From Bacteroidales bacterium (GTDB lineage: Bacteria > Bacteroidota > Bacteroidia > Bacteroidales > UBA932), in assembly GCA_017465225.1 (NCBI GenBank), contig JAFTWQ010000004.1, positions 1-47,767 of the forward strand: a stretch of DNA of 47,767 nt. Direction: 5' to 3'. Made by a program: the position numbers and the translations under genes. Positions 3,357-47,767 of this stretch are shown here, in pieces (the stretch's first letter is position 1; each line of letters begins with the position of its first letter). The notes below the pieces were generated by a model. That model made no database searches and was not told the DNA's origin. It saw only the letters and a program-made list of their open reading frames with translations.

Positions 3357-3360
3357 CTAG

Positions 3361-3433
3361 TGCTCCCCCAGGGGCTCGAACCCTGGACCCCAACATTAAG
3401 AGTGTCGTGCTCTACCAACTGAGCTAGGGAAGC
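3361..3433 (-). tRNA. tRNA-Lys (anticodon CTT), copy 1
   Basis: A 73-nt gene on the minus strand with all four arms: acceptor GCTTCCC/GGGGAGC, D arm with GCTCAGTTGGTAGAGC, anticodon stem CGACA/TGTTG with loop CTCTTAA (anticodon CTT), T stem CAGGG/CCCTG with TTCGAGC loop, discriminator A. CCA is not encoded. Its 3' end faces the mobile element, as expected for an integration target. Confidence 0.95.
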
Positions 3434-3471
3434 ATTGCTTCAATATTTGATTTCTGGGGCTTTCGCCTTTG

Positions 3472-3544
3472 TGCTCCCCCAGGGGCTCGAACCCTGGACC
3501 CCAACATTAAGAGTGTCGTGCTCTACCAACTGAGCTAGGGAAGC
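3472..3544 (-). tRNA. tRNA-Lys (anticodon CTT), copy 2
   Basis: Identical over all 73 nt to the copy at 3361-3433, separated from it by 38 bp. The two copies and the third tRNA appear to be co-transcribed from the promoter at 3679-3686. Confidence 0.95.
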
Positions 3545-3554
3545 AGTATTTCCG

Positions 3555-3627
3555 TGATTCGCATGGGGCTCGAACCCATGACCCCAACATTAAAAGTGTT
3601 GTGCTCTACCTACTGAGCTAGCGAATC
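3555..3627 (-). tRNA. tRNA-Lys (anticodon TTT)
   Basis: A 73-nt gene with acceptor GATTCGC/GCGAATC, anticodon stem CAACA/TGTTG with loop CTTTTAA (anticodon TTT), T loop TTCGAGC, discriminator A. It is first in the three-tRNA operon. Confidence 0.95.
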
Positions 3628-11369: not shown

Positions 11370-13364
11370 TTACAAATAAGCATCCTCAACAACCTTGGCA
11401 CTTCTTGCAATGAAGTCGCTGAGGTCCTTTCCTTTAAGCATTCCGTTAGCCAGAAGCGCAAGGTCAGTGATCTGCTTGAGAATCTCATTATCTCCGGCAA
11501 ACGCCTCAAGATCAGACTTATGAGCAGCCGCTGCAGTCTCCTTGGCCTCTGTCACAGTCCTCTTCACATCCTCTGAAGCATCCTCCGCAGCATCAGGAAT
11601 CACCTGTGCAGGAGCAACATCCGCTGCCTTCGAAGCCATGATCTTCGCAACGAGAGGATTCTGCATGTTTACGGTGATATTGTACATCGCAGGCATCTCG
11701 CCATAGAAGTTCATTCCTCCGCCCATTGCAGACATCTCACGATAGCGGCGCATGAACTCGCTCTGCGTGATGAGGATAGGAGCCGCATTCTCTCCGAGAT
11801 TGTCCGCCTGGACATAATACTGGTTCTCCTTCGGAAGCACGGCCTGGAAGATAACCGAAAGATCCTCCTGATCCGCCTCTGAAAGCTGTGGCTTGATCTT
11901 CTCCTCCTTAGCGATGAGGTTGTCAACGCTATCCGAATCCACACGTGCAAAACGGGCATTCTCAACCTTGGTCTCGAGAAGGTTCACGAAATGGCTGTCA
12001 AGCTGGCAGTCAAGAAGAAGTACGTCATATCCCTTTGCCTTCGCAGCCTCGATGAATGTATACTGGTTCTCAACATCAGTCGCATAGAGGAACACGACCT
12101 TCTTGTCCTTGTCAGTCTGCTCTCCCTCGATCGCCTTCTTATAGTCTTCAATACTGAAATATTTTCCCTCGGTGTTCTTCAGGAGGCAGAACTTCATGGC
12201 CCTGTCACAGAACTTCTCGTCCGAAAGCATTCCATACTCGATGAAGAGCTTGAGGTTATCCCATTTCTCCTCGAGCTGCTGGCGCTCGTTCCTGAAGATC
12301 TCGTCAAGACGATCTGCTACCTTCTTTGTAATATAAGTAGAGATCTTCTTTACGTTGGCGTCGCTCTGGAGATAGCTGCGGGACACATTAAGCGGAATAT
12401 CCGGCGAGTCGATCACTCCATGGAGCAATGTCAGGAAGTCAGGAACGATATTGTCGACAGAATCGGTCACGAACATCTGGTTGCAGTAGAGCTGGATCTT
12501 GTTGCGCGAGATCTCGACATTGTTCTTGATCCTAGGGAAATAGAGGATACCGGTAAGGTTGAACGGATAATCCACGTTAAGATGGATATGGAAGAGAGGC
12601 TCCTCCGCCATCGGATAGAGAGTCCTGTAGAACTCATTGTAATCCTCATCCTTGAGATCGGCAGGCTTGCGCGCCCAAAGCGGCTCGACCTTGTTGATGA
12701 CATTATCCCTCTCTGTATCAACATATTTGCCATCCTTCCATTCCTGTTCCTTTCCGAACACTACAGGCACAGGCATGAACTTGCAGTACTTGTTCAGGAG
12801 ACCCTCGATACGCTTTTTCTCGGCGAATTCCTTCTCATCGTCAGCTATGTAGAGAGTGATGACAGTACCTCTGTCAGTCTTGTCGCACTCCTCCATGTCA
12901 TACTCAGGAGAGCCGTCGCATGACCACTTCACAGCCTTGGCGCCTTCCTTCCATGAAAGGGTTTCGATTGTCACCTTGTCAGCGACCATGAATGCAGAGT
13001 AGAATCCGAGGCCGAAATGACCGATGATGCTGCTGAGCTGGTCCTTATATTTCTCGAGGAATTCCCCTGCTGAAGAAAAGGCGATCTGGTTGATGTATTT
13101 ATCCACCTCTTCCTCGGTCATACCGATACCGTTGTCGATGACCTTGAGGGTCTTTGCAGACTCATCAAGTTCGACGCGTACAGCGAGGTCGCCGAGTTCA
13201 GCGGCATATTCGCCGGAAGCGGCCAGAGCCTTCATCTTCTGTGTAGCATCCACAGCATTTGCCACGAGCTCTCTCAAAAAGATCTCATGGTCTGAATAGA
13301 GAAATTTCTTGATCACCGGGAATATGTTCTCGGTAGTAACGCCAATTTTTCCTGTTGTTGCCAT
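11370..13364 (-). CDS. htpG: Molecular chaperone HtpG (Hsp90)
   Basis: 664 residues. An ATP-driven cytoplasmic chaperone. The N-terminal GHKL ATPase is complete: FLRELVANAVDATQK, DNGIGMT and GHFGLGFYSAFM. The middle domain (about 230-480) and the C-terminal dimerisation region (about 510-664) follow. Bacteroidetes HtpG proteins are commonly somewhat longer than the E. coli form. The gene is monocistronic with terminators or repeats on each side. Confidence 0.96.
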   Translation of the reverse strand: MATTGKIGVTTENIFPVIKKFLYSDHEIFLRELVANAVDATQKMKALAASGEYAAELGDLAVRVELDESAKTLKVIDNGIGMTEEEVDKYINQIAFSSAGEFLEKYKDQLSSIIGHFGLGFYSAFMVADKVTIETLSWKEGAKAVKWSCDGSPEYDMEECDKTDRGTVITLYIADDEKEFAEKKRIEGLLNKYCKFMPVPVVFGKEQEWKDGKYVDTERDNVINKVEPLWARKPADLKDEDYNEFYRTLYPMAEEPLFHIHLNVDYPFNLTGILYFPRIKNNVEISRNKIQLYCNQMFVTDSVDNIVPDFLTLLHGVIDSPDIPLNVSRSYLQSDANVKKISTYITKKVADRLDEIFRNERQQLEEKWDNLKLFIEYGMLSDEKFCDRAMKFCLLKNTEGKYFSIEDYKKAIEGEQTDKDKKVVFLYATDVENQYTFIEAAKAKGYDVLLLDCQLDSHFVNLLETKVENARFARVDSDSVDNLIAKEEKIKPQLSEADQEDLSVIFQAVLPKENQYYVQADNLGENAAPILITQSEFMRRYREMSAMGGGMNFYGEMPAMYNITVNMQNPLVAKIMASKAADVAPAQVIPDAAEDASEDVKRTVTEAKETAAAAHKSDLEAFAGDNEILKQITDLALLANGMLKGKDLSDFIARSAKVVEDAYL

Positions 13365-20965: not shown

Positions 20966-23257
20966 ATGAGCACCAGATTCAGAACCATCATCACATCGCT
21001 TGCGATCCTGTCATGCGCATTCATTTCTTCGGCACAGATGCGCGAGCCGGTCGCATCGCCGATCGTCCATCCGGACAACACAGTAACATTCAACCTCGTC
21101 GCTCCTGAAGCCGAGAACGTAAAGATCAGCGCCCAGTTCGCGCCAAAGACCGACATGGTCAAAGGAGAGAACGGAGTCTGGACAATAACCCTCGGACCTG
21201 TCGCTCCGGATATCTATCCATATTGCTTCGAAGTGGACGGAGTCGCAGTCATGGACCCGCAGTGTCCGGACTGGTTCCCTAACGAAGGCTTCAAGAATTC
21301 CATCGTCGATGTAAGAGGCGACAAGCCGATGGACCATGAGCTCCGAAGCGTTCCTCACGGAAAGGTGGACTATGTGAACTATTATTCAGAGACCCTGGGA
21401 CTTTACGGCAACGCCATCGTATATACACCTCCTACTTATGACAAGGACACAGACAAGAAATATCCTGTATTCTATCTCATAAGCGGCACTACCGACACTG
21501 AAGAGGTCTATTTCAAGGTCGGAAAGATGAACCTCATCCTCGACAACCTCATCGCCGAAGGCAAGGCAAAGGAGATGATCATCGTCCTCCCTTACGGAAA
21601 TCCTATGAAATATTATCCTGCCGGAACATTCGACTTCAGGAAAGGCGACATCTTCAGCAAGGACCTCCTCAACGATCTCATGCCTTATGTTGAGGCAAAC
21701 TACAGGACTCTGAACGACAGGGAGAACAGGGCCATCGGAGGCTTCTCGAGAGGTGGAAACCAGGGTCTTGCATTCGGTCTCAACAACCTCGACAAATTCT
21801 CATACCTCTGTTCGTACAGCTCGTTCACCAGCATGGACATTCCGGGCGTATACGACAAGGCAAGAAAGACCAACAAGAAGATCAATCTCTTCTGGCTCGG
21901 CGTCGGCACCGATGACTTCCTTTACGGCAATGCAAAGGAGTACATGGAGTTCCTCGACAGGAAGGGCATTGACAACGTCCAGGTACTCACTTCCGACAAG
22001 ATGGGACATACATGGATGAACGCAAGATATTTCCTCAGCGAGACCTTCCCTCTCCTCTTCAACAAAGAGGCTTCCAAGGCAGCGATGAAGAAAGCCGAAG
22101 CAGCAAAGCCTGCCGGAAAGAAGGCGAAGGAGGCTCCGGAAGCAGCTCCTGCAGCAAGGCCAGACAGGCAAAGGCTTACTCCTGAAGTGATGGCAGCCCT
22201 CTTCCCTCCGGGAGTTGTATCACCAGAATATCACAAGGACGGTAGCGTAACATTCCGCGTACACGCGCCTAATGCAGAGAAGGTCGAGCTCGAAGGCCAG
22301 ATGTTCGAAGGCACAAAGCCTATGACAAAGGGCGACAGAGGCGTATGGGCAGTCACTATCACCCCGGACCAGCCGGACATCTATCCGTACTCATTCATCA
22401 TTGACGGCACAAAGATCGCCGATCCGCAGAACATGCACATCTTCCCTAACGAGGGCTACAAGGCAAGCCTCGCCGACATCAAGGCTCCACAGCCGGATCC
22501 GCAGGACCTTCAGGATGTGCCTCACGGCAAGGTAAGCTATACATATTATACATCGAAGGCTGTAGGCTTCGACAGGCCTGTCTGCATCTACACTCCGGCC
22601 GGATACGACCCTGCAGGAGCGGAGAAGTACCCTGTGCTTTACCTCATCCACGGCATGACCGACACTTACGAGACATGGTTCAAGGTCGGAAGAGTCAACA
22701 ACATCCTCGACAACCTCATCGCGGCAGGACTCGCCGAGAAGATGATCGTCGTGATGCCATACGCAAACCCATATCCTGAAATGATGCGCAGAGGTCTGGC
22801 GGAAAGATATGACGCCCTCGACACCAAACTGACTACAAAGGAGTTCACCGAATCAGTGGTTCCTTTCATCGAGGCCAACTACAACGTGCGCACAGACGCT
22901 GACAGCAGGGCGATCGCCGGCTTCTCACTCGGAGGAAGACAGACCCTCGCATGCGGACTCGGCAACCCTGACATGTTCCATTATGTATGTGCATTTGCAC
23001 CGGCTATCTTCGGACCGGAAATCGGAGCGAACTTCACAAACGGCACATATGCTGACGCTGCAAAGATCAACGACAGCCTCAAGCTTGTATGGCTCAGCTG
23101 CGGAACATCGGACTTCCTCTACCAGTCGTCTCTTGCCCTCGAGAAGCAGTTCAACGAAAGAGGCATCGAGCACAAGACAATGTATCCTGGCGGCGGACAT
23201 ACCTGGATGAACTGCAGGGACTACCTCATCGAAGTGGCCAAGCTGCTGTTCAAATAA
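20966..23257 (+). CDS. Secreted tandem esterase: two copies of E-set domain plus esterase
   Basis: 763 residues with a signal peptide ending near SSAQ. The order is E-set/CBM48-like domain (about 25-115), esterase-D-type alpha/beta hydrolase (about 130-370), Ala/Lys/Pro linker (about 370-400), a second E-set (about 405-490) and a second esterase (about 505-763). Nucleophile elbows GFSRGG (Ser about 260) and GFSLGG (Ser about 653), and His in HTWMN near 346 and 743, are present in both, so both halves may be active. Such enzymes usually remove ferulate or acetate from xylan. It is related to the single-unit protein at 38722-39900. Unit duplication is an inference from the internal repeat. Confidence 0.85.
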   Translation: MSTRFRTIITSLAILSCAFISSAQMREPVASPIVHPDNTVTFNLVAPEAENVKISAQFAPKTDMVKGENGVWTITLGPVAPDIYPYCFEVDGVAVMDPQCPDWFPNEGFKNSIVDVRGDKPMDHELRSVPHGKVDYVNYYSETLGLYGNAIVYTPPTYDKDTDKKYPVFYLISGTTDTEEVYFKVGKMNLILDNLIAEGKAKEMIIVLPYGNPMKYYPAGTFDFRKGDIFSKDLLNDLMPYVEANYRTLNDRENRAIGGFSRGGNQGLAFGLNNLDKFSYLCSYSSFTSMDIPGVYDKARKTNKKINLFWLGVGTDDFLYGNAKEYMEFLDRKGIDNVQVLTSDKMGHTWMNARYFLSETFPLLFNKEASKAAMKKAEAAKPAGKKAKEAPEAAPAARPDRQRLTPEVMAALFPPGVVSPEYHKDGSVTFRVHAPNAEKVELEGQMFEGTKPMTKGDRGVWAVTITPDQPDIYPYSFIIDGTKIADPQNMHIFPNEGYKASLADIKAPQPDPQDLQDVPHGKVSYTYYTSKAVGFDRPVCIYTPAGYDPAGAEKYPVLYLIHGMTDTYETWFKVGRVNNILDNLIAAGLAEKMIVVMPYANPYPEMMRRGLAERYDALDTKLTTKEFTESVVPFIEANYNVRTDADSRAIAGFSLGGRQTLACGLGNPDMFHYVCAFAPAIFGPEIGANFTNGTYADAAKINDSLKLVWLSCGTSDFLYQSSLALEKQFNERGIEHKTMYPGGGHTWMNCRDYLIEVAKLLFK

Positions 23258-38512: not shown

Positions 38513-38669
38513 CATGAATCAGTGCGACCATCTGCGGCCGATTCATGTTCCCACGGTGCGACAAACAGCATAATTAGTAGCAAAAACAGCACCGTCGGTA
38601 CATGGGATGAAAGATCCATGTACCGACGCTCATTCAAAGAAAAAGAGACACCCTCGAAAGGATGTCTCT
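38513..38669. repeat. Intergenic hairpin repeat, copy 2, with terminator
   Basis: Hairpin CATGAATC/GATTCATG (38513-38547), the shared CCCACGGTGCGACA, then a 12-bp stem CGTCGGTACATG/CATGTACCGACG (38593-38628). It ends in GAGACA...TGTCTC (38645-38668), the same terminator sequence seen at 41790-41813 and 46602. It lies downstream of the esterase at 38722 and upstream of the islet promoter. Confidence 0.6.
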
Positions 38670-38721
38670 ATATTGGTCTGAGATGCCCGATCGGGGCGGG
38701 CACGGTTCCCCTAAGGCAAGT

Positions 38722-39900
38722 CTATTTCTTCCAGAGGTTAGGGAGGAAACCATGATAGAGGAGATTTCTCCAGGTAGACCAGTCGTGTCCGGTTTCACCT
38801 ACGCAGAAGTACTCATATTCGATGCCGTGCTTCTCGAGAGCTTCCCTGAAAGGCTTGACACGCATATTGAACATGCCCTTCTCTTCAGCGCCTCCCTGTC
38901 CGATGAACAGATAATCCACCTTGTCGTTGGCTTCAGGATCATTGAGGAATTCGCCGAGGGTTTCTTCTGGTCTGTTGTCACCTGCGCTGAGGACGCCGAA
39001 GTTTGCGAAGAGGTCAAGAGACTTCAGACCCACGAACATAGTGTGGCGGCCACCCATCGAGAGACCGGAAATTGCACGGCCATGAGGATTTGCGATGGTC
39101 TTGTAGTGACTGTCGATGAATGGGATGACAACCTCACGATACTCACGCGCCATAATATCGAAAGTAAGATCGGCGTGCTGAGGATGATTGCGGTGAACGA
39201 CCTGATTGTTCACAAGTACAATAAGCATTGGTTCAGCTTTCCCTTCCGCCAGGAGATTGTCCATAATGAAGTTCACGCGTCCGTCATACATCCAGTTTGA
39301 CGGAAGTTCTCCGCTGCCGCCCATCAGGTAGAGGACCGGATATTTCTTCTTTGGATTATATTTAGGAGGGGTATAAACATAGAGTTCACGTTCGCCTTTG
39401 GTGACAGAGCTGTAGTAGATATGACGTGTGATGGCTCCATGAGGCACATCCTTGGCGTCCCACCATGATGGTCCGTCGCCGTGGACGATAAGTTCGCTAT
39501 AAGGAGGCATTGCCGTAAAGGCCGCATATGTGTTATTCGGATCGGCCATTCTGACACCATCCACAACCAGATTGTACTGGTACATGTCCACCGGGAGAGG
39601 ACCGATGGTGAGGGTCCAGATACCGTCTTCCCCTTTGGTGAATGGTATGTTTCCACGTACTCCCATTACCGTGGTCATTGCGCCAGAGAGGGCTACTGAC
39701 TCCGCTTCGGGGGCCCTGAGGCGGAAAGTGACGGTACGGTCGTCATTCACCTGAGGTGAATTCAGATTCGCACTGAAAGGGATTAATCCTTCGGTATCTT
39801 TCTGAGGATTGTAACTGAGGTTGATGTTCGACTGCTGGGCAGATGCAGTCAAAGCAGTAAGTAGCGAAATCGCCACGACAATAATTTTCCGGTTCATCAT
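38722..39900 (-). CDS. Secreted esterase with E-set domain (feruloyl/acetyl esterase-like)
   Basis: 392 residues from MMNRKIIVVAISLLTALTASA, with a signal peptide. Residues about 40-125 form a CBM48-like E-set (FRLRAPEAESVALSG) and about 140-392 the esterase. The nucleophile elbow GLSMGG (Ser about 278) and His in GETGHDWSTW near the end are visible. It is the single-unit relative of the double esterase at 20966-23257. A longer frame to 39957 has no signal peptide. Confidence 0.85.
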   Translation of the reverse strand: MMNRKIIVVAISLLTALTASAQQSNINLSYNPQKDTEGLIPFSANLNSPQVNDDRTVTFRLRAPEAESVALSGAMTTVMGVRGNIPFTKGEDGIWTLTIGPLPVDMYQYNLVVDGVRMADPNNTYAAFTAMPPYSELIVHGDGPSWWDAKDVPHGAITRHIYYSSVTKGERELYVYTPPKYNPKKKYPVLYLMGGSGELPSNWMYDGRVNFIMDNLLAEGKAEPMLIVLVNNQVVHRNHPQHADLTFDIMAREYREVVIPFIDSHYKTIANPHGRAISGLSMGGRHTMFVGLKSLDLFANFGVLSAGDNRPEETLGEFLNDPEANDKVDYLFIGQGGAEEKGMFNMRVKPFREALEKHGIEYEYFCVGETGHDWSTWRNLLYHGFLPNLWKK

Positions 39901-40026
39901 GGTGTTATTTTTTCGCAATGTACAAAAAAGCTGATTATTATGAAAGTATGGCAGCAAAAGTCTGCCAAAAACGCCACGAATGGAGAATTGAAAAGACTGG
40001 CCAATGTCTGAATTACATGCAATAAT

Positions 40027-40698
40027 TTACCAGATAAAAGGGATAACCTTATACTTTACACGCGTTTTGTATTCCTTGTAACCGTCAAGACCGGATGTCA
40101 GGACTGCTTCCTCATTACGGATCCTCCGGGCGATCACCGGAATATATCCAAGCATAATGAAAAGGGAAATCGGAGAGCCAAGGACCAGAGGCATTGACAG
40201 GAAAAGGATTACTGTTGCCATATACATCGGATGACGGACAATGCCATATAGCCCGGTATCAATGACTTTCTGTCCCTCCTGGACTTCGATGGTTCTGGAA
40301 AGGTATTCGTTTTCCCGCAGCACTTCTGCATATAATATGTACGACAGAATAAAAAGGGCTGCGGCTGTCCATACTGTCCACTCCGGCAGTACCCAACAAT
40401 CGTATCTCCAGTTAAGACCAGCAGTCGTGAATGACATTATGAACAACAGGCCGCTCAATGCCACTACTGCCTTCTGCTCATTTTCCTTCTCCTTGGCATT
40501 CAGCCTTTTACGAAGCAATTCAGGACTCTTGACAAGCATGACAGCTCCGGCAACGAACATAGGTACGAACAGAATTCCCATGAGAAGCCATCCCTGCCAA
40601 TAAGCGAATGATCCTGCCGGCAGAAACAGCATCAGACCTACAAGCACAATACCTGAGGTAAACTTCAACAACGACTGTGTCAACAAGGATTTATTCAT
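40027..40698 (-). CDS. Integral-membrane methyltransferase (ICMT/phospholipid methyltransferase type)
   Basis: 223 residues with about five membrane segments. The C-terminal VIDTGLYGIVRHPMYMATVILFL is the SAM-binding core of isoprenylcysteine and phospholipid methyltransferases. It overlaps the upstream hydrolase by 8 nt. The substrate is unknown. Confidence 0.75.
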   Translation of the reverse strand: MNKSLLTQSLLKFTSGIVLVGLMLFLPAGSFAYWQGWLLMGILFVPMFVAGAVMLVKSPELLRKRLNAKEKENEQKAVVALSGLLFIMSFTTAGLNWRYDCWVLPEWTVWTAAALFILSYILYAEVLRENEYLSRTIEVQEGQKVIDTGLYGIVRHPMYMATVILFLSMPLVLGSPISLFIMLGYIPVIARRIRNEEAVLTSGLDGYKEYKTRVKYKVIPFIW

Positions 40699-41431
40699 AT
40701 TGCATCCGTATTATTCTTTGCGCCACCTCCTCAGGCTTGTCAATCAGGAGCTGGCCGTGGTTCATTCCTTTGAATACTTCAACCTTCGTTTCAGGATGTA
40801 ATGATGTCAGATGACTCACCTGCGGCCTTGCGACAAAGGCTTCCTTCGTACCGTACCAATAATGGATATCGCTTCCTGAAATACTTTCAAGTTTCGTTGT
40901 ATAGACTGAAGTATATCCATCCAGAACCGCCTTACTGCCACCAAATGGATAAGCCTTCTTACATTCGTCAAGTATGACATCGAAATAGTGCGAATGAAAG
41001 ACCCATCTCCAGAATCCGGTCCAATGATAGCAGGTCCAGACGTTGGCACATTGATAGTATTTCAATGGGGTTACGAGCCATCTTGGAAGAGGCAATAAAG
41101 GAGCCGCATCCAATATCGAATGTTTTATCACGACCTCATTTCTTTCAAGAATACGTGACAGGATTTTGCCTCCGAGAGACAGTCCATAGGCTATGTCGAG
41201 ATGTCCGCCGAGGTCTTCTTTGATATATTTGCTTACTTGCCGTGCCTGATCGTCTATTGATGAAAATTCCGTACGACGGCCTAATGTAAAGCCGTCGACC
41301 TGAACCGCTATGACATGAAACTTTTCCTCCAGCAGACCGATAAGAGGCAGGAAAATCTCGTATGAGACTCCCAAGCCTGGAATCAGCAGGAGGGTTGGTG
41401 ATCCGACATTACCGAAAGTCTTGAAATCCAT
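40691..41431 (-). CDS. Alpha/beta hydrolase
   Basis: 246 residues, no signal peptide. The oxyanion region LLLIPGLGVSYE is near the start, the nucleophile elbow GLSLGG (Ser about 104), and the C-terminal His in GMNHGQLL. It is first in the operon with the methyltransferase and has a TATCTTTG box at 41461-41468 on the minus strand. Confidence 0.75.
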   Translation of the reverse strand: MDFKTFGNVGSPTLLLIPGLGVSYEIFLPLIGLLEEKFHVIAVQVDGFTLGRRTEFSSIDDQARQVSKYIKEDLGGHLDIAYGLSLGGKILSRILERNEVVIKHSILDAAPLLPLPRWLVTPLKYYQCANVWTCYHWTGFWRWVFHSHYFDVILDECKKAYPFGGSKAVLDGYTSVYTTKLESISGSDIHYWYGTKEAFVARPQVSHLTSLHPETKVEVFKGMNHGQLLIDKPEEVAQRIIRMQYE

Positions 41432-41460
41432 TGAGTTCTATAAATCTCGATTAATCTGTT

Positions 41461-41468
41461 CAAAGATA
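41461..41468 (-). promoter_or_regulatory. -7 box of the hydrolase/methyltransferase operon
   Basis: The minus strand reads TATCTTTG, 30 bp upstream of the hydrolase start. Confidence 0.5.
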
Positions 41469-41519
41469 ATAAAATTCGCAAGGATTACAAATGATCATTA
41501 TTATGTATCAGTATAATCA

Positions 41520-41813
41520 TCTGCGACCAATTGGAAACTGGCCGCTCATTGGGTTCGGGAAGGTCGTTCTGTCCGTAAATTCCGCCAAATTACGGATGAG
41601 ACGGGCGAATTTGAAGGTTCCATCCGTAAAACATGGGTTTTTACGGATAGAACACAGCATATAGATGATCCTGTCCATGAAAAGGGGCTCTTTTATGGAC
41701 AAGGAGCTGATTTGACGGGCTTTGTCCATGAAAAGGACGGTTTTTGTGGATAAGATGGTGATTGGACGGGAAGATACCAACAAAAAAAGAGACACCCCGA
41801 AAGGATGTCTCTG
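41520..41813. repeat. Hairpin array block, four units, 51-bp period, with head and terminator
   Basis: Head TGCGACC...GGCCGCTCATTGGG (41522-41553). Hairpins lie at 41572-41596, 41623-41647, 41674-41699 and 41725-41750; unit starts are exactly 51 bp apart. Stems are TCCGTAAA/TTTACGGA or TCCATGAAAA/TTTTATGGA, so pairing is kept despite base changes. A terminator follows at 41790-41813. It fills the 451-bp gap between the hydrolase promoter and the GGGtGRT remnant. Confidence 0.75.
41790..41813 (-). terminator. GAGACA terminator beyond the GGGtGRT remnant
   Basis: On the minus strand GAGACA/TGTCTC stem followed by seven T residues. It stops transcription coming from the GGGtGRT remnant side. 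Confidence 0.7.
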
Positions 41814-41831
41814 TAGCTATTTGGTAATGAG

Positions 41832-41877
41832 ATCCCCGATCAGGTCGGGGATGACGTCATTGCCGGCTTGATCGGCA
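41832..41877. repeat. Two short GC-rich stems after the GGGtGRT remnant
   Basis: ATCCCCGA/TCGGGGAT at 41832-41852 and ATTGCCG/CGGCAAT at 41857-41877. These are close relatives of the GC-rich stems near 11276. Confidence 0.45.
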
Positions 41878-41882
41878 ATCTC

Positions 41883-42048
41883 TTATTTGTTAAGCGCAGT
41901 AGCAACGTCAACGGGGCAAGCAACTGTACAACCTACCATAGGGTTGTTACCGATGCCGAGGAATCCCATCATCTCAACGTGTGCCGGAACTGATGATGAT
42001 CCTGCGAACTGTGCGTCAGAGTGCATACGGCCCATAGTGTCGGTCATA
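41883..42048 (-). pseudogene. 3' remnant of the GGGtGRT gene
   Basis: The 166 bp match positions 46682-46847 with 8 differences (about 95%). They encode the last 55 residues of the GGGtGRT protein, including FLGIGNNPMVGCTVAC, with one Ala-to-Pro change (VACPVD). No 5' part of the gene is present. The sequence match stops abruptly after GGTCATA. It is the left end of the insert between 42049 and 46681 and reads as the displaced gene end. Confidence 0.9.
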
Positions 42049-42050
42049 TA

Positions 42051-42099
42051 TCCAATGGCTACCGTCCGTACGCGGTACGTCCGTGTGTAAGCCATTGGA
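42051..42099. repeat. Palindromic insert next to the gene remnant
   Basis: TCCAATGGCT (42051-42060) and AGCCATTGGA (42090-42099) are exact reverse complements. An inner CGTAC-GCG-GTACG stem is also present. The 59 bp (42049-42107) separate the remnant from a 12-bp trace of the same gene (42108-42119, 11 of 12 matching 46848-46859). Confidence 0.5.
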
Positions 42100-42262
42100 C
42101 GTCAATGCCGTATGAAGCAATACTTTGCCAAAATCCGGGTCGCAATTTACCTGAGAGACGTCACACGGTCGCACTGAGAGCCTTATGGAAGTGCCTTTGG
42201 CTCTGTGATTTATCTCGAATTTTTGGGTCGCTTTGGTACAATGGGTTGATTGCACGTTATAA

Positions 42263-42913
42263 TTACCCATCCAACCCGGTCATACAGAGTTCCTTCACTT
42301 TTCGGATAGTGTTGACTGATGTGCCTGTAAGAGCAGCGATGTTCCTCAGTGAGATACCCTTCTTCAGCAGTCCTATCTCCTTCTGATATTGCAGTCTGTA
42401 CGATTCAATATCCTTCTTATATGAGGACGGCCGTCCCATCTTAACACCTTCCTTTCTGCACTTCTCTATGTACTGAGCCCTACCGCTGTTCATACGCTCT
42501 CTGATGGTCAGGCGTTCCATAGATGCGATTTCCAATAGTATTGTACATATAAGACTCACAACGGGATTGACAGTTCCGTCAGTATTCAGCGTCTCCAATG
42601 AATAGTTCTTTATATAGAGACTCACTTTATTCTCATTCAATATCTGAATAACCTTCAGTGCTTCGAGGGTATTACGACCGAGACGACTGATTTCGAGGCA
42701 TACGACTCTTTTCACGTCATTGCTGCGGACGAACTCAATCATATCTCTCAGTTCAGCACGGTTTTCAAATGATTCCGCGCCAGTTACCTTATTTGCGAAT
42801 GTACCTGCGATATCCCAATCCATCTTCTGACAGAACGACTCCAATTCATTTATCTGTCTGCGATATTCCTGCCTGTCTGTGCTGACTCTCGCCAATATTA
42901 CTACCTTATCCAT
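42263..42913 (-). CDS. Small serine recombinase (resolvase/invertase family)
   Basis: 216 residues from MDKVVILARVSTDRQEY. The catalytic Ser is Ser11 in the RVSTDRQ motif. The core has VCLEISRLGRNTLEAL with the two Arg, the E-helix MERLTIRERMNSGRAQYI, and a C-terminal HTH of the resolvase type (GRPS..., ISLRNIAALTGTSVNTIRKV). It catalyses DNA cleavage and strand exchange; it is the likely integration or inversion enzyme of this insert. The longer opening to 42961 adds 16 residues with no family support. It lies 143 bp from the remnant of the target gene. Confidence 0.85.
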   Translation of the reverse strand: MDKVVILARVSTDRQEYRRQINELESFCQKMDWDIAGTFANKVTGAESFENRAELRDMIEFVRSNDVKRVVCLEISRLGRNTLEALKVIQILNENKVSLYIKNYSLETLNTDGTVNPVVSLICTILLEIASMERLTIRERMNSGRAQYIEKCRKEGVKMGRPSSYKKDIESYRLQYQKEIGLLKKGISLRNIAALTGTSVNTIRKVKELCMTGLDG

Positions 42914-43095
42914 AAACGTATGATTAACTACTCTTATATGACAGAAATAGCATGAATACACAGAGATGTATCAATTTAAGATAAAGCAATAAACCGCTGC
43001 GTCCAGGGTATCCGGAAAGATAGCAGTTCAAGCATTAAAACGATGCGTTTGCAGTTTTGACGCGAAGAGAATTTTGCAGATTAAGGAAATTTGTA

Positions 43096-43217
43096 TAATT
43101 TTGCGTCGTCAAGGGGAATTCGCGTAAGGGATGACAACCCTTTCTGTCTGTTGCAGTGATGCCAGTCAGTTTCGAGCCCCAAAGCATAACAGCCACTCTC
43201 AATGAGCGGCTGTTTTT
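43096..43217 (+). ncRNA. Candidate small RNA with own promoter and terminator
   Basis: TAATTTTG at 43096-43103 (-7 box) with TTTTG about 25 bp upstream predicts a start near 43110. The product has a stem AAGGG/CCCTT (about 43126-43142) and ends at AACAGCC/GGCTGTT (43188-43214) followed by T5. No convincing open frame lies in it. The 305-bp gap between the recombinase and the next gene otherwise contains nothing I can name. The terminator also serves the minus-strand gene at 43219. Confidence 0.4.
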
Positions 43218-43218
43218 G

Positions 43219-43611
43219 CTATAAAGAAGTAATGCAATACTGCACCTTATCACCAGTCGATTTCTGAAGACCTACTGTCATCTTAATGTTGTCCAATTGC
43301 ATGATGTACATCTTCAAGAAAGGTTTCTGATTCTTCGTTCCTTTCTTGATCGGTACTTCTGCTATTTTCTTTGACTTTGTAAGAAGTTCCGACAGTCTCA
43401 TTACTGCCAGCGTGGACTCATATTGCCTTGCAGCCTTTTCGGCAGTCTCGGTAATTGAAAGATATTTGACAAGAATGTAATCCTGCAAATCTTCATTCCA
43501 CATTTTCTTATCAGGGTTGTCCGCTATCCACCCTGCATAGAAGTCCTTGATGATCTTATCCCTCATTTTGACTTCCTCTCTACTGTTCCCCTGTGGTATA
43601 TTCATTTTCAA
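43219..43611 (-). CDS. Mobile-element-associated protein of unknown function
   Basis: 130 residues, soluble, Lys-rich. Recognisable elements are IPQGNSREEVKMRDKIIKDFY at the N-terminus and the C-terminal MTVGLQKSTGDKVQYCITSL. Similar proteins are often seen in Bacteroidales mobile regions, but I know no function. A start at 43605 is an alternative. It lies between the candidate small RNA and the AT-rich leader of the protease gene. Confidence 0.6.
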   Translation of the reverse strand: MKMNIPQGNSREEVKMRDKIIKDFYAGWIADNPDKKMWNEDLQDYILVKYLSITETAEKAARQYESTLAVMRLSELLTKSKKIAEVPIKKGTKNQKPFLKMYIMQLDNIKMTVGLQKSTGDKVQYCITSL

Positions 43612-44032
43612 AGTACTTTAGGTTGCTAAGGTACATAATCGTCATCATATTACCAATCATTTTATAATACAAACGCACGATACCCCGTGAGTGTTGTTTA
43701 TCCGAAAAATTCTTCCGACATTTGGGAATCATTCGGCGAAAGCTGTCTGACTTACATATTGTGAAAGTGTTTTTCGCAAGTCCTTTAATGAAAATGTGGA
43801 AGTTTTCTTTGTTAGAAGGATGATACGAACAACACACACTTTCGTATAGATACATGTGGTTGGGTGCATTCTGCATCCCGATATCCCATATCTATTCGAG
43901 TGTGGGGTATTGTGTCGTTTATTTCTAACAGGGTCTTTCCACAACCTTCATTAAGATAAACGGAAGTCAGCTCCACACTTTCTTTGTATATACACTTATG
44001 TCTGAAGGAGTTGGAAGGCATTTATAGTCTCT
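43612..44032. other. 421-bp AT-rich gap with no recognised gene
   Basis: No frame longer than about 70 codons has a family resemblance. It contains repeated fragments of the type GAAAGTGTG with TGTATxTA nearby (about 43838-43860 and 43972-43990) and an inverted pair ATACCCC/GGGGTAT (43680-43686 and 43906-43912). It is possibly the promoter region of the protease gene. Confidence 0.35.
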
Positions 44033-45400
44033 ATGAAAACAAAGGTGTTCTATATAGTTTTATTTGCAATATTATTTTCATGCATATCATCTACAGCAGC
44101 AGATAGAGTAATTGTTAATCCTGTCTGTGAACGACAGACTGTAAGATTAATGCATCTAACCAAGATAGACCTTACTTCGACTGCAACAGTATTATATGGA
44201 GAATATATTTCATACGCGGATGAGTCTTGGGTTAATTTCTCCAAAGATACCTATATCCTTACTGATGGAGGGCTAAAATTGAATCTTATTAAAAGCACGG
44301 GAATACCTACTGATCCTCAGCGTCGTTCAAATCTGTCTAAAGGAGAAATAATATCATTTTCTTTACATTTTCCATCTATAGGGAATAACGTAAATACCAT
44401 TAGTTTAATAGAAGGTGAAGACGGCGCTTTTAATATGTACAACATATACATAAATGAAAGTTTGATTAATGAACTAGCCCCAGAAGCGATAGGAAAAATA
44501 ATGTCTCCTATTGACAACAGAATATTTTCCATGACATATTTAGATGTAGAGAATGAATCTGTGATGAACAGTCCTACACTTAGGGGACGCTTAAGAGGTT
44601 CATCTAAAGCATATATATCAGTACCTGTTGGCCAAACGGAATTGGATCAATTTATTTTTTCAGGGTTGGAGTATGCTTTAACCCTGAAAGGATTAATGGT
44701 AGAAAAACAGCCAACATATTACGAAAATGAACAATTATACCAAAATGGCATCAATGGATTTACAAGAACTGCTAAAAAATCTATGTACGAAAATTATCCA
44801 GATTATAATAGCATTACAGTAATAACTCAATATAGATATATGGCGACAGGATATGGTAATGTTTGCTATATATATTTTACAGTTGTTGATTTATGTGGAA
44901 ACAGTTGGAGTTTTGATATTAAACTGCCTAGAAAACTTGATACTTTTGTTGAAGATATTCTTGAACATATTGGAACTTCTAACACCTACGATTCTTCAAA
45001 GGGTTTTATTAACAATCACTATAGAACGAACTGGGAATATAAGCATTATATGTCTTATTTTGAATCATCTCTCAACAATGACTATGAAGGAATATATACA
45101 TACAAAGGTAGAGAAGTTGCCATCCTAACCGCAGGTAGTGAATTTTTATGTATCTATCTTTTGGGTGCTAAGAATCAAACAAATTGGAAAGAAGGGTATG
45201 TGCAAGCCATTTTAGAGCAAAGTTCAACAAATGGAATAGCAACGGGATGGTGGGAGGATGATGACTTTTATGGTGATGTAACTGTGGCTTTTGACAATGG
45301 ATGCCTCACAGTTATTGGAGAAAACATGAAAGATGGAACTGAGTACAAACAATTATTAATAAAAAAAATATCCACAGGTTTCTTCTGCGAAACAATATGA
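44033..45400 (+). CDS. N-terminal part of a split secreted protease
   Basis: 455 residues with a signal peptide (MKTKVFYIVLFAILFSCISS; the LFSC could also be a lipobox). The part up to about residue 443 is an unrecognised beta-rich region that should precede the trypsin domain. The frame leaves the true continuation at an A8 tract (45361-45368) and ends 11 codons later. Removing one A would join it to the protease frame that continues at 45363. The base composition is markedly AT-rich, as in the rest of the insert. Confidence 0.7.
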   Translation: MKTKVFYIVLFAILFSCISSTAADRVIVNPVCERQTVRLMHLTKIDLTSTATVLYGEYISYADESWVNFSKDTYILTDGGLKLNLIKSTGIPTDPQRRSNLSKGEIISFSLHFPSIGNNVNTISLIEGEDGAFNMYNIYINESLINELAPEAIGKIMSPIDNRIFSMTYLDVENESVMNSPTLRGRLRGSSKAYISVPVGQTELDQFIFSGLEYALTLKGLMVEKQPTYYENEQLYQNGINGFTRTAKKSMYENYPDYNSITVITQYRYMATGYGNVCYIYFTVVDLCGNSWSFDIKLPRKLDTFVEDILEHIGTSNTYDSSKGFINNHYRTNWEYKHYMSYFESSLNNDYEGIYTYKGREVAILTAGSEFLCIYLLGAKNQTNWKEGYVQAILEQSSTNGIATGWWEDDDFYGDVTVAFDNGCLTVIGENMKDGTEYKQLLIKKISTGFFCETI

Positions 45401-46037
45401 ATCTCAATCTAGTTCGGGTTCCGGTTTTTTGGTGTCAACTCATGGGTATGTAATCACAAACTACCATGTCATAGAATCAGCTACTGATGATATATTAATA
45501 ACAGGCTTAAATGGAGATATGCATACCACTTATAACGCTAGAATTGAGATCATTGACAAGCAAAATGATTTGGCATTATTAAAGATAATAGATTCAAAAT
45601 TTGTTGAACTGAATTCTTTGCCTTATGGTTTTAGGACATCAACCTGTGATTTAGGAGAAGATTGTTATGTATTAGGTTATCCTATGATTACAACAATGGG
45701 AACAGATATCAAACTTACAACTGGTATAATAAGTTCTAAGACTGGCTTTCAAGGAGATGTATCGTGTTATCAAATATCAGCACCGGTACAGCCAGGAAAT
45801 AGCGGAGGACCTCTTTTTGATAAAAACGGTAATATCATTGGTATTGTTAGTGCGAAGCACGGTGGTGCGGAAAATGTCGGATATGCAATTAAATGTAATT
45901 ATATAGCTAATCTAGTTGATTTACTAGATACTCCTATTACACTTAACAAGAAAACTAATTTAGTTGGTAAAACATTAAGTGAGCAGGTTAAACATACAAG
46001 TACATGCACGTTACTTATTTTGGTTAATTATCAATAG
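45363..46037 (+). pseudogene. Trypsin-like (HtrA-type) protease domain, out of frame
   Basis: The frame is open from 45363 after a TAA at 45360-45362. An internal ATG is not convincing, so translation needs the upstream frame. All three catalytic residues are seen: His in VITNYHVIES, Asp in KQNDLALLKI and Ser in VQPGNSGGPLFDKNG. GIISSKTGFQGD and YAIKCNYIANLVDLL complete the chymotrypsin fold. Joined with 44033 it would encode about 668 residues. The break may be a mutation, a phase-variable tract or an assembly error. Confidence 0.75.
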
Positions 46038-46050
46038 AATAGCAATTATA

Positions 46051-46398
46051 ATGGATGCAATAATCATGGAAATCAAAAGAATCTCTGAAAACTTGATGGA
46101 GATCCCATATGGTAGGTCTATCAGAAATGGTGAAAAGATTCTTCCACCTCATTACCAACAATATGCAAATGAGATGAAAAGACTTATTAATTTATTGTTA
46201 AGTCTATATAATCTTGACAATGATTGCATTTTAGTGTCGGAAATGAATCAAATACAAAGTTTGTATGATAATGAAATTCTTCAGGCAATAATTGACAAAG
46301 ATCAAAGAATGAGAGAGTTTTATAAGCTTGGGTATGATCCAAAACTTTTAAGTGTATCAAGAACAATAAAACTTATAACAGATCGTTTAAATAAGTAA
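46051..46398 (+). CDS. Small protein of unknown function
   Basis: 115 residues from MDAIIMEIKRISENLMEIPYG. A helical protein with no recognised motif. A longer frame from 45979 overlaps the protease and is less likely. It is the last gene of the insert, 14 nt after the protease stop. Confidence 0.5.
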   Translation: MDAIIMEIKRISENLMEIPYGRSIRNGEKILPPHYQQYANEMKRLINLLLSLYNLDNDCILVSEMNQIQSLYDNEILQAIIDKDQRMREFYKLGYDPKLLSVSRTIKLITDRLNK

Positions 46399-46402
46399 AT
46401 TC

Positions 46403-46624
46403 TGCGACCCATCAAAAACAGGTCGCTCATTGGGTGCGGGATAGTCGTTCCGTCCATGAAAATGGGTGTTTTCGTGGAGGGGAAGCTATGTTTGAGATCG
46501 GTGGCCAGAAAAAAGGCTGATTTTATGGCCGAGAAGGTATTTTTGAGGTCGCCGGCCAAGATAAAGGGCATATTTCTGGCCGGGTGGTTTGCAGACAAAA
46601 AAAGAGACACCCTCGAAGCTGCAA
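46403..46624. repeat. Hairpin array block, three units, 51-bp period
   Basis: The head CTGCGACCC...GGTCGCTCATTGGG has a GCGACC/GGTCGC stem (46404-46426). Hairpins lie at 46453-46478, 46503-46530 and 46554-46581, with centres exactly 51 bp apart. Stems are TCCATGAAAA, GGCCAGAAAA and GGCCAAGATAAA, with matching partners. The closing GAGACACCCTCGAA is followed by a different sequence than at 41790. It is the right-hand counterpart of the block at 41520-41813. Confidence 0.7.
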
Positions 46625-46631
46625 AGAAAAA

Positions 46632-46652
46632 GCCCGGCGAAGAGCCGGGCTA
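46632..46652 (-). terminator. Terminator after the complete GGGtGRT gene
   Basis: AGCCCGGC/GCCGGGCT stem with a short loop, followed by TTTTTC on the minus strand, 30 bp after the gene. Confidence 0.65.
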
Positions 46653-46681
46653 ATTCTTTGCTTGCTACAAGCGAAACAAAT

Positions 46682-47692
46682 TTATTTGTTGAGTGCAGTA
46701 GCAACGTCAACCGCGCAAGCAACTGTACAACCTACCATAGGGTTGTTACCGATGCCGAGGAATCCCATCATCTCAACGTGTGCTGGAACTGATGAAGAAC
46801 CTGCGAACTGTGCGTCAGAGTGCATACGTCCCATAGTGTCGGTCATACCATATGAAGCAGGACCTGCTGCCATGTTGTCCGGGTGAAGTGTACGGCCTGT
46901 ACCACCACCTGATGCTACTGAGAAGTATGGCTTGCCTGCAAGCACGCGCTCCTTCTTGTAAGTACCTGCTGTAGGGTGCTGGAAACGTGTAGGGTTTGTA
47001 GAGTTACCAGTGATTGATACGTCTACACCCTCGTGCCACATGATAGCTACACCCTCGCGTACGTCGTCTGCACCGTAGCAGTTAACCTTTGCGCGTGGAC
47101 CGTCGCTGTAAGCGATGCGGCGTACTTCCTTGAGCTCACCAGTGAAGTAGTCGAACTCAGTCTGCACATATGTGAAACCGTTGATACGAGCGATGATCTG
47201 AGCTGCGTCCTTACCGAGACCGTTAAGGATCACGCGGAGAGGCTCCTTACGTACCTTGTCAGCCTTTGCTGCGATCTTGATAGCACCCTCTGCTGCTGCG
47301 AATGACTCGTGACCTGCGAGGAATGCGAAGCACTTTGTCTCCTCGCGGAGGAGCATAGCTGCGAGGTTACCGTGGCCGAGACCTACCTTACGGTCGTCAG
47401 CTACTGAACCAGGGATACAGAATGCCTGGAGACCGAGACCGATAGCCTCAGCTGCCTCAGCTGCGTTCTTGCAACCCTTCTTGAGAGCGATTGCACATCC
47501 TACTACATAAGCCCACTTTGCGTTCTCGAAGCAGATCGGCTGAGTCTCCTCACATGTCATATAAGGATCGAGACCATACTGATCGCAGATTGCGTTTGCC
47601 TCCTCGATAGAAGCGATACCGTTCTCGTTGAGAACTGCGAGGATCTGGTTGATACGACGATCCTGGCTTTCGAATTTTACTTCTCTAATCAT
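46682..47692 (-). CDS. GGGtGRT protein
   Basis: 336 residues. The name motif is visible in SVASGGGTGRTLHPDNM at about residue 268. The protein is conserved in Bacteroidales but has no established role. It contains NAKWAYVVGCAIALKKGCKNAAEA, SVADDRKVGLGHGNLAAMLL and GNNPMVGCTVACAVDVATALNK. An AGGAGG ribosome site precedes the start. The upstream gene is probably its partner, so a joint iron-sulfur or radical-related function is only a guess. Its last 55 codons are duplicated at 41883-42048. Confidence 0.93.
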   Translation of the reverse strand: MIREVKFESQDRRINQILAVLNENGIASIEEANAICDQYGLDPYMTCEETQPICFENAKWAYVVGCAIALKKGCKNAAEAAEAIGLGLQAFCIPGSVADDRKVGLGHGNLAAMLLREETKCFAFLAGHESFAAAEGAIKIAAKADKVRKEPLRVILNGLGKDAAQIIARINGFTYVQTEFDYFTGELKEVRRIAYSDGPRAKVNCYGADDVREGVAIMWHEGVDVSITGNSTNPTRFQHPTAGTYKKERVLAGKPYFSVASGGGTGRTLHPDNMAAGPASYGMTDTMGRMHSDAQFAGSSSVPAHVEMMGFLGIGNNPMVGCTVACAVDVATALNK

Positions 47693-47707
47693 AGTCTTTC
47701 CTCCTTA

Positions 47708-47767
47708 TTATTCGTGACGTGGGTCAATGTATTTAACTGCACCGGCCTCCTCAGAGAAACGGCCATA
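47708..47767 (-). CDS. End of a gene upstream of GGGtGRT, probably iron-sulfur scaffold-like
   Basis: Only the last 19 codons are in the window; they end GAVKYIDPRHE and a TAA at 47708-47710. This ending resembles the C-terminus of the Bacteroidales NifU-like scaffold protein usually next to GGGtGRT genes (recalled, not tested). The next start is 16 nt downstream with a good ribosome site, so both are one operon. Confidence 0.5.
   Translation of the reverse strand, partial: YGRFSEEAGAVKYIDPRHE

Follow-up and report, generated by a model that had tools for sequence, protein, structure and literature searches.

The DNA examined here, referred to as the window, is a stretch of 47,767 nucleotides (nt) from a Bacteroidales bacterium (contig JAFTWQ010000004.1 of assembly GCA_017465225.1). 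It is one whole contig of a metagenome-assembled genome (MAG) that is 78% complete, designated G000, and it carries an insert at the 3' end of a GGGtGRT gene lying near the contig end. The gene itself is intact (336 codons, positions 46682 to 47692 on the minus strand; PF14057, 631 bits). Its last 55 codons (46682 to 46847) form the gene-attached copy of the gene end, on the attL side, and a displaced copy that consists of the last ~55 codons only lies on the same strand at 41883 to 42048, on the attR side. The two make up a direct repeat of 166 nt with 95.2% identity (8 mismatches), and only the right copy belongs to a complete gene, as a preliminary description of this DNA had reported. The duplication is longer than described there: on the right it covers 447 nt (46401 to 46847), comprising the last 55 codons and ~280 nt past the stop codon, and its left counterpart lies at about 41520 to 42048, with a more diverged tail. 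The tail that follows the intact gene (46401 to 46681, minus strand) contains a terminator-like sequence, GGGTGTCTCTTTTTT, and is homologous to the native tail of the same-genus genome G234; the duplication stops at 46401. The displaced native tail (41520 to 41882, minus strand) runs on into an outer flank with genes for an alpha/beta hydrolase (40691 to 41431) and an ICMT-like methyltransferase (40027 to 40698), both on the minus strand. A DNA search of the window genome placed the 166-nt end at these two positions only, and the displaced ends of other genomes have the same 5' start, so the repeat does not stem from chance. The possibility that the right tail is a genome-wide repeat was rejected; its matches in its own genome are the left tail and one 29-nt piece only.

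G234 provides an empty site, with one gene end followed directly by the outer flank of the window. Alignment to G234 divides the window into two BLAST blocks that overlap by 417 nt in that genome. The block at 46401 to 47708 spans the gene, the gene end, and ~280 nt of tail, and the block at 38618 to 42048 spans the second gene end, its tail, the alpha/beta hydrolase, the ICMT-like methyltransferase, and an esterase. Downstream of the single gene end in G234, these three genes share 91%, 93%, and 95% identity with their counterparts in the window, respectively. With block ends at 42048 and 46401, the unique part of the insert, not present at the empty site, is delimited to 42049 to 46400. The preliminary description had pointed to relatives without the insert as the place to look either for a single gene end or for two ends that predate the insert, and G234 has one. 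In another member of the genus, G032, a displaced gene end lies 18.2 kb from the intact gene on a 504-kb contig, and past it are the same outer methyltransferase (78% identity) and a remnant of the hydrolase. The elements in G032 and in G507, a genome of the same order, carry a different tail at the gene-attached end than the window does.

The same boundary recurs in many other genomes. DNA searches detected the gene end in 70 of 200 genomes of the genus, with more than one match in 11 (G000, G021, G032, G039, G050, G066, G134, G170, G183, G186, and G216), some of the multiple matches being pieces of one copy. Among 30 junctions that we compared, 3 are gene attached, 4 start at the edge of a record, and 23 are detached copies. 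All 23 detached ends share a block that starts, within ~3 nt, at the equivalent of window positions 46847 and 42048, and the block start reads TGAC(C/A/T)GA(C/T)AC in 22 of them (TTAC in G021b); these copies are not all independent, as L193/L194, G050/G186, and G216a/G216b are near-duplicates, and L193 to L195 are phage or element records and not displaced chromosomal copies. Upstream of the shared block, the sequence varies between element families. Several detached copies are damaged, by an insertion in G039 and G293 and by deletions in G066, G170-p2, and G216, and neighboring gene-attached copies are intact frames. In three genomes, G039 and G293 included, detached ends carry at one point an insertion of ~75 to 76 nt that starts with TTAAGCCCT (L126:6188-6263, L309, and L215); this insertion may predate the present inserts, as two different element ends precede it. 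The attached and displaced ends, the empty site, and the same start elsewhere support the claim, made in the preliminary description, that the insert uses the 3' end of the GGGtGRT gene as its target.

One group of tyrosine integrases is associated with this boundary. The first gene past the gene end in G032 encodes a tyrosine recombinase of 401 amino acids (aa), int401, and its relatives lie within ~450 bp of the gene end in G068, G041, Bacteroides fluxus, and a Prevotellaceae MAG (L117, 54% identity), although the B. fluxus and L117 cases came from a gene-seeded search and hence are not independent. Searches with int401 returned loci for the best matches only, with at most 1.5 kb of DNA per side. 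In the 200 genomes of the genus, all four homologs longer than 300 aa (56 to 100% identity) adjoin the gene end, and it adjoins none of the remaining 26 loci (at most 35% identity). In 393 genomes of the order, the one long homolog (G507, 73% identity) adjoins the gene end, and 0 of the remaining 29 loci (at most 42% identity) do so. Matches in IMG/VR comprise 8 loci, 4 of them with the gene end upstream. In a tree of 12 integrases adjacent to the gene end and 48 others, the 12 form one clade with 100/100 support, recovered in 200 of 200 bootstrap trees, and none of 500 shuffles gave a value as low. The integrases of G507 and G170 have the Pfam domains Arm-DNA-bind_5, Phage_int_SAM_5, and Phage_integrase, and a clade integrase lies inside the element in G032, G170, G068, G041, G507, and B. 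fluxus. The enzyme tied to the GGGtGRT target is thus probably, judging from these sequence associations, a member of this tyrosine-integrase clade and not the serine recombinase of the window insert.

Complete elements illustrate this arrangement. G507 is a single contig of 3,444,538 bases, in which an element of 12.6 kb lies between the gene end and the displaced end. From the gene end inward, it encodes the integrase, a 279-aa protein, a protein with weak DndB/ParB-like similarity, DUF3871, RadC, a second tyrosine recombinase of 195 aa, a transpeptidase, and a polyvalent kinase, after which the displaced end follows; no relaxase or conjugation genes were found in the 9 frames scanned of its 16 frames of at least 90 aa. 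In B. fluxus YIT 12057, gene ends at contig positions 145134 and 169192 are separated by 24.06 kb, and the integrase follows the first of them. A viral contig of 17.6 kb, IMGVR_UViG_3300032167_005224 (L187/L188), holds two clade elements in tandem, in the order gene end (468), integrase, RadC-like gene, second recombinase, gene end (14581), and integrase. The integrase of G170 and of L190 lies at the far end of the element, in the opposite direction and ~134 nt before the detached end. At this same boundary, an 11.0-kb element is present in G170 and absent in G066.

Phage-like contigs carry the gene end as well. The IMG/VR contigs L193 (65.8 kb) and L194 (39.3 kb) each have a single gene end directly before an integrase with 63% identity. 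L193 encodes a terminase large subunit (330 bits), a major head protein (90 bits), and an exonuclease (114 bits), with a weak match to an Rz spanin (24 bits) adjoining the integrase, and the frames of L194 are nearly identical to those of L193. Because each linear record has a single gene end, we regard these genomes as free rather than integrated, and the arrangement would be that expected of a free phage whose attP site includes a host gene end. At nine further IMG/VR loci (L192, L196, and L198 to L204), the gene end is in every case followed, as the first frame of 110 aa or more, by a tyrosine integrase that scores above the Pfam cutoff, the Arm-DNA-bind_5 domain of int401 was found in none of the nine, and each record has the gene end in one place, with no second copy. 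The GGGtGRT sequences of these nine loci look, on impression, Bacillota-like. Counting these nine together with 8 viral cases inside the clade, all 17 loci with DNA to inspect have an integrase beside the gene end (out of 19 loci, of which two share a contig; L197 and L205 stop at the gene end, and in L190 the integrase is upstream), a count that is biased because the loci were retrieved by gene end from a virus collection. These loci show that integrases beyond the clade also use the gene end, which is a recurrent hotspot. Matches to the gene end were also present in 7 INPHARED and 10 PLSDB records; among the five phage and two plasmid records examined, an integrase match was seen only in P. 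massiliensis OY725990, as a fragment (44% identity) between two gene ends.

We consider it likely, on the strength of these comparisons, that the gene end is the attB site of the tyrosine-integrase clade and that the window insert is the product of such an integration, now without its integrase. In the mechanism that we propose, the 3' end of the GGGtGRT gene would serve as an attachment site (attB) in Bacteroidales, at which an integrase with arm-binding, SAM-like, and catalytic domains would recombine element or phage DNA into the gene near codons 282 and 283. The incoming DNA would bring the last 55 codons with it, so that the gene stays complete while the former 3' end is displaced to the far side; the crossover would be expected to map to TATGACNGAYAC. 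The order in the window would then be the gene, a new end with its tail, cargo, the element end, the displaced end, and the native flank. The window element presumably once had, or borrowed, a clade integrase and is now defective, and the serine recombinase was probably added afterward, as part of a nested segment. We infer from sequence that a site-specific crossover took place at the shared block, that the incoming copy replaced the gene end, and that the window insert lost its integrase. Because no family integrase lies inside it, the window insert is a derivative and not a complete member of the integrative elements at this gene 3' end.

Several observations weigh against this reading. The right copy in the window includes a native-like tail of ~280 nt, although a textbook attP does not require one; the tail might derive from an excision circle that would have held the gene end together with its tail. 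No circle or excision was observed. Gene-like sequence extends 8 to 30 nt further upstream in 7 of the 23 detached copies (G066, G170-p2, G012, L047, L190, L191, and L212), and three partial ends (L042, L046, and L097) start deeper inside the gene. As for the integrases, 20 of the 55 loci with weaker homologs have less than 1 kb of DNA on a side, so that absence of the gene end there is partly unproven, and short integrase fragments in G068 (62 aa, 76% identity) and G183 (67 aa, 58% identity, at a contig edge) have no gene end in 5.6 and 6.0 kb of surrounding DNA, respectively. The other 4 of the 8 viral loci matched by int401 show no gene end, their records beginning at or in the integrase. 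Finally, the window genome, a 78%-complete MAG, has no clade integrase at an E value of 1e-20, and the element end in the window lacks the arm-like sequence common to G032-like ends.

An integrase-less insert could also be a cassette that is mobilized in trans by a clade integrase, and not a decayed autonomous element, which we regard as possible but rather less than probable. Small units of this kind exist: next to the boundary, G066 and G170 share one between gene-end copies with no integrase inside (L123:1070-2540 and L213:13285-14730), which we take to resemble a DUF3990/DUF3791 toxin-antitoxin pair, L047 has a unit of 3.2 kb, and P. massiliensis has one of 2.3 kb that holds the integrase fragment mentioned above. 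However, deletion of the integrase after integration accounts equally well for its absence, and the window retains a 12-mer, TGTGACGTCTCT (42154 to 42165, minus strand), that is also seen beside the G170 integrase and is a possible relic of an integrase arm site. In G170, the 12-mer occupies positions 13001 to 13012 of L213 and precedes the integrase start by 11 nt, and its distance to the junction is 117 nt in the window and about 121 nt in G170; one site matching TGTGACGTCTCT with at most one mismatch was observed in the window versus 0.23 expected. The 12-mer is a weak hint of a G170-type ancestor. Similarly tentative is a broader scheme in which the gene end is a platform across distant bacteria, akin to a primitive cassette array, where DNA between end repeats (toxin-antitoxin pairs and protease cargo) would be excised and reinserted by a tyrosine integrase that a resident element or phage provides, with the host gene left whole. 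Unequal homologous recombination or tandem duplication, without any site-specific recombinase, might have produced the two ends and would suit a duplicated piece that takes in noncoding native-like tail; it is very improbable given that the same 5' start occurs with differing upstream sequence across many genomes and that the integrase clade tracks this start. An assembly artifact might be suspected where the window is a whole contig of an incomplete MAG with the gene close to its end, but comparable arrangements occur on the 504-kb contig of G032, the single contig of G507, and in the named strain B. fluxus YIT 12057, and the two gene-end copies of the window can be told apart by 8 nt and by their tails, which makes this explanation exceedingly improbable.

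The preliminary description had assigned entry into the gene end to the small serine recombinase of the insert (216 codons, 42263 to 42913, minus strand; PF00239, 87.9 bits). No other recombinase was found in the insert, and only 214 nt separate the end of this frame from the junction. A short remnant of its family occurs near gene-end pieces in G216, and the L195 element carries a small serine recombinase (L195:11251-11895, 36% identity) after a RadC-like gene. Yet all 13 long homologs in the genus (60 to 71% identity) are on contigs for which the DNA search shows no gene end, in genomes of which 7 have it on another contig and 6 have none at all, the contigs being fragments. A search for the serine recombinase in IMG/VR gave five stretches that fit a pattern, none of which was confirmed. 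Its best matches are DNA invertases, as is its PHROG match, and L195, like the other gene-end loci in the integrase tree, has a tyrosine integrase. The segment that carries it (42199 to 43666, minus strand; its limits could shift by tens of nt) does not occur at the corresponding element end in G039 and G293: positions 42049 to 42198 are shared with these genomes (94% and 83% identity, respectively), 39 nt then stand in place of the 1,468 nt of the window, and the sequence resumes at window position 43667. This segment is probably a nested insertion, with the serine recombinase and the neighboring LPD3-like gene as later arrivals; loss from both G039 and G293 would be a less simple reading. 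Homologs apart from the gene end, a probably nested position, and a tyrosine-integrase clade that tracks the target leave entry by the serine recombinase unsupported, and we hold it to be quite improbable. Like the Bacteroidales master DNA invertase Mpi (NF009949), it is a small serine recombinase with an Mpi-like match; unlike Mpi, it scores 56.5 bits against a curated cutoff of 272, which places it outside that family, and it is probably a passenger here. In L195, the small serine recombinase sits where other clade elements have the second tyrosine recombinase.

Integration into the 3' end of a gene with restoration of that gene is a well-known mechanism. Phage 21 and the element e14 integrate in the 3' part of Escherichia coli icd and replace ~165 bp of coding sequence. 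The GGGtGRT elements resemble them in that they, too, integrate toward the 3' end inside a protein gene and bring in a replacement of similar size; they differ in the gene, the host phylum, and the integrase. Islander genomic islands, as presented in passages of PMC4383910, split a target gene and restore it. As in those islands, a regenerated target and a displaced fragment mark the ends here, and complete relatives have a tyrosine integrase; unlike what those passages describe, the target is a protein gene, GGGtGRT, and not a tRNA or tmRNA gene, and the window copy has no tyrosine integrase. Passages on dusA-targeting integrases (PMC4482086) describe one family that uses one protein gene and occurs in prophages and islands. 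The elements described here likewise tie a single integrase family to a single protein gene in prophages and islands, but they enter at the 3' end, whereas dusA elements, according to the same passages, enter at the 5' end.

The preliminary description knew of no element family with this target, and none is named in the titles, abstract openings, and passages of the open literature that our limited search covered; the passages on GGGtGRT in PMC9942572 and PMC10434189 contain nothing on integration. A passage of the latter places the gene of Bacteroides thetaiotaomicron and its NifU partner (BT0173-74) in an iron-dependent stimulon, and integration may thus touch a locus that responds to iron. 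The GGGtGRT gene is apparently an undescribed attachment gene for gut bacteria and phages that can be pinned to an integrase clade. Its detached 55-codon fragment is a marker for finding islands, prophages, and phage attP sites, and the clade integrases might serve as tools to insert DNA at a natural Bacteroidales site.

The remaining content of the window insert consists of a structured element end and several small genes. A hairpin stretch at the element end (42051 to 42099, minus strand) has 10-nt arms at 42051 to 42060 and 42090 to 42099 and a predicted DNA fold of -14.9 kcal/mol (z score of -3.5). It is common to G000, G039, and G293 and also occurs, inverted and with ~61 nt of gene end, at L040:9166-9244. 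Just upstream of it, the window and G039 have a gene-like sequence, GCTTCATACGG, as if the hairpin were located inside the attachment site. A dispersed repeat was considered and rejected for this stretch, which has matches in 4 of 250 genomes of the genus, one of them (G052) over 21 nt only. The nested segment includes the LPD3-like protein (130 aa, 43219 to 43611, minus strand; PF18798, 29.1 bits with a cutoff of 27). It is followed by a segment at 43667 to 44004 (minus strand), the low-coordinate part of which (about 43667 to 43725 in G039 and 43667 to 43808 in G293) lies 39 nt from the element end in those two genomes, with a further copy (88% identity) in G039.

Three frames on the plus strand complete the insert: a 455-aa protein without a Pfam, NCBIfam, or PHROG match (44033 to 45400), a trypsin-like protease of the HtrA type (45429 to 46037; PF13365, 78.3 bits), and a 115-aa protein without a Pfam or NCBIfam match (46051 to 46398). 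Partial homologs of the 455-aa protein (25 to 36% identity) are present in 13 other genomes of the 200-genome genus search, or 14 with G000. The preliminary description had proposed a split protease; the 455-codon frame indeed stops just past a run of eight A's (45361 to 45368), and the trypsin-like frame is open back to that run, but one broken gene could not be confirmed. Its characterization of the insert as AT rich holds for about 43500 to 46400 (GC content of 0.32 to 0.38) and not for the left 1.2 kb (0.40 to 0.48). No relaxase or conjugation genes were detected among the five insert proteins with Pfam and NCBIfam, and no phage structural genes were detected among the same five proteins with Pfam and NCBIfam or among three of them with PHROGs. 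The candidate RNA proposed earlier found no counterpart, as Rfam at the gathering threshold matched three tRNAs only across the window.

Elsewhere in the window, three tRNA-Lys genes stand in tandem at 3360 to 3627 (anticodons ctt, ctt, and ttt). A dispersed palindromic repeat beginning with GATCCCCGATCAGGTCGGGGAT lies at 41829 to 41882 and has many partial matches in its own genome. Two more esterase-like frames, side by side and with ~32% identity to the outer-flank esterase, were noted for 21056 to 23227 and 38722 to 39900.

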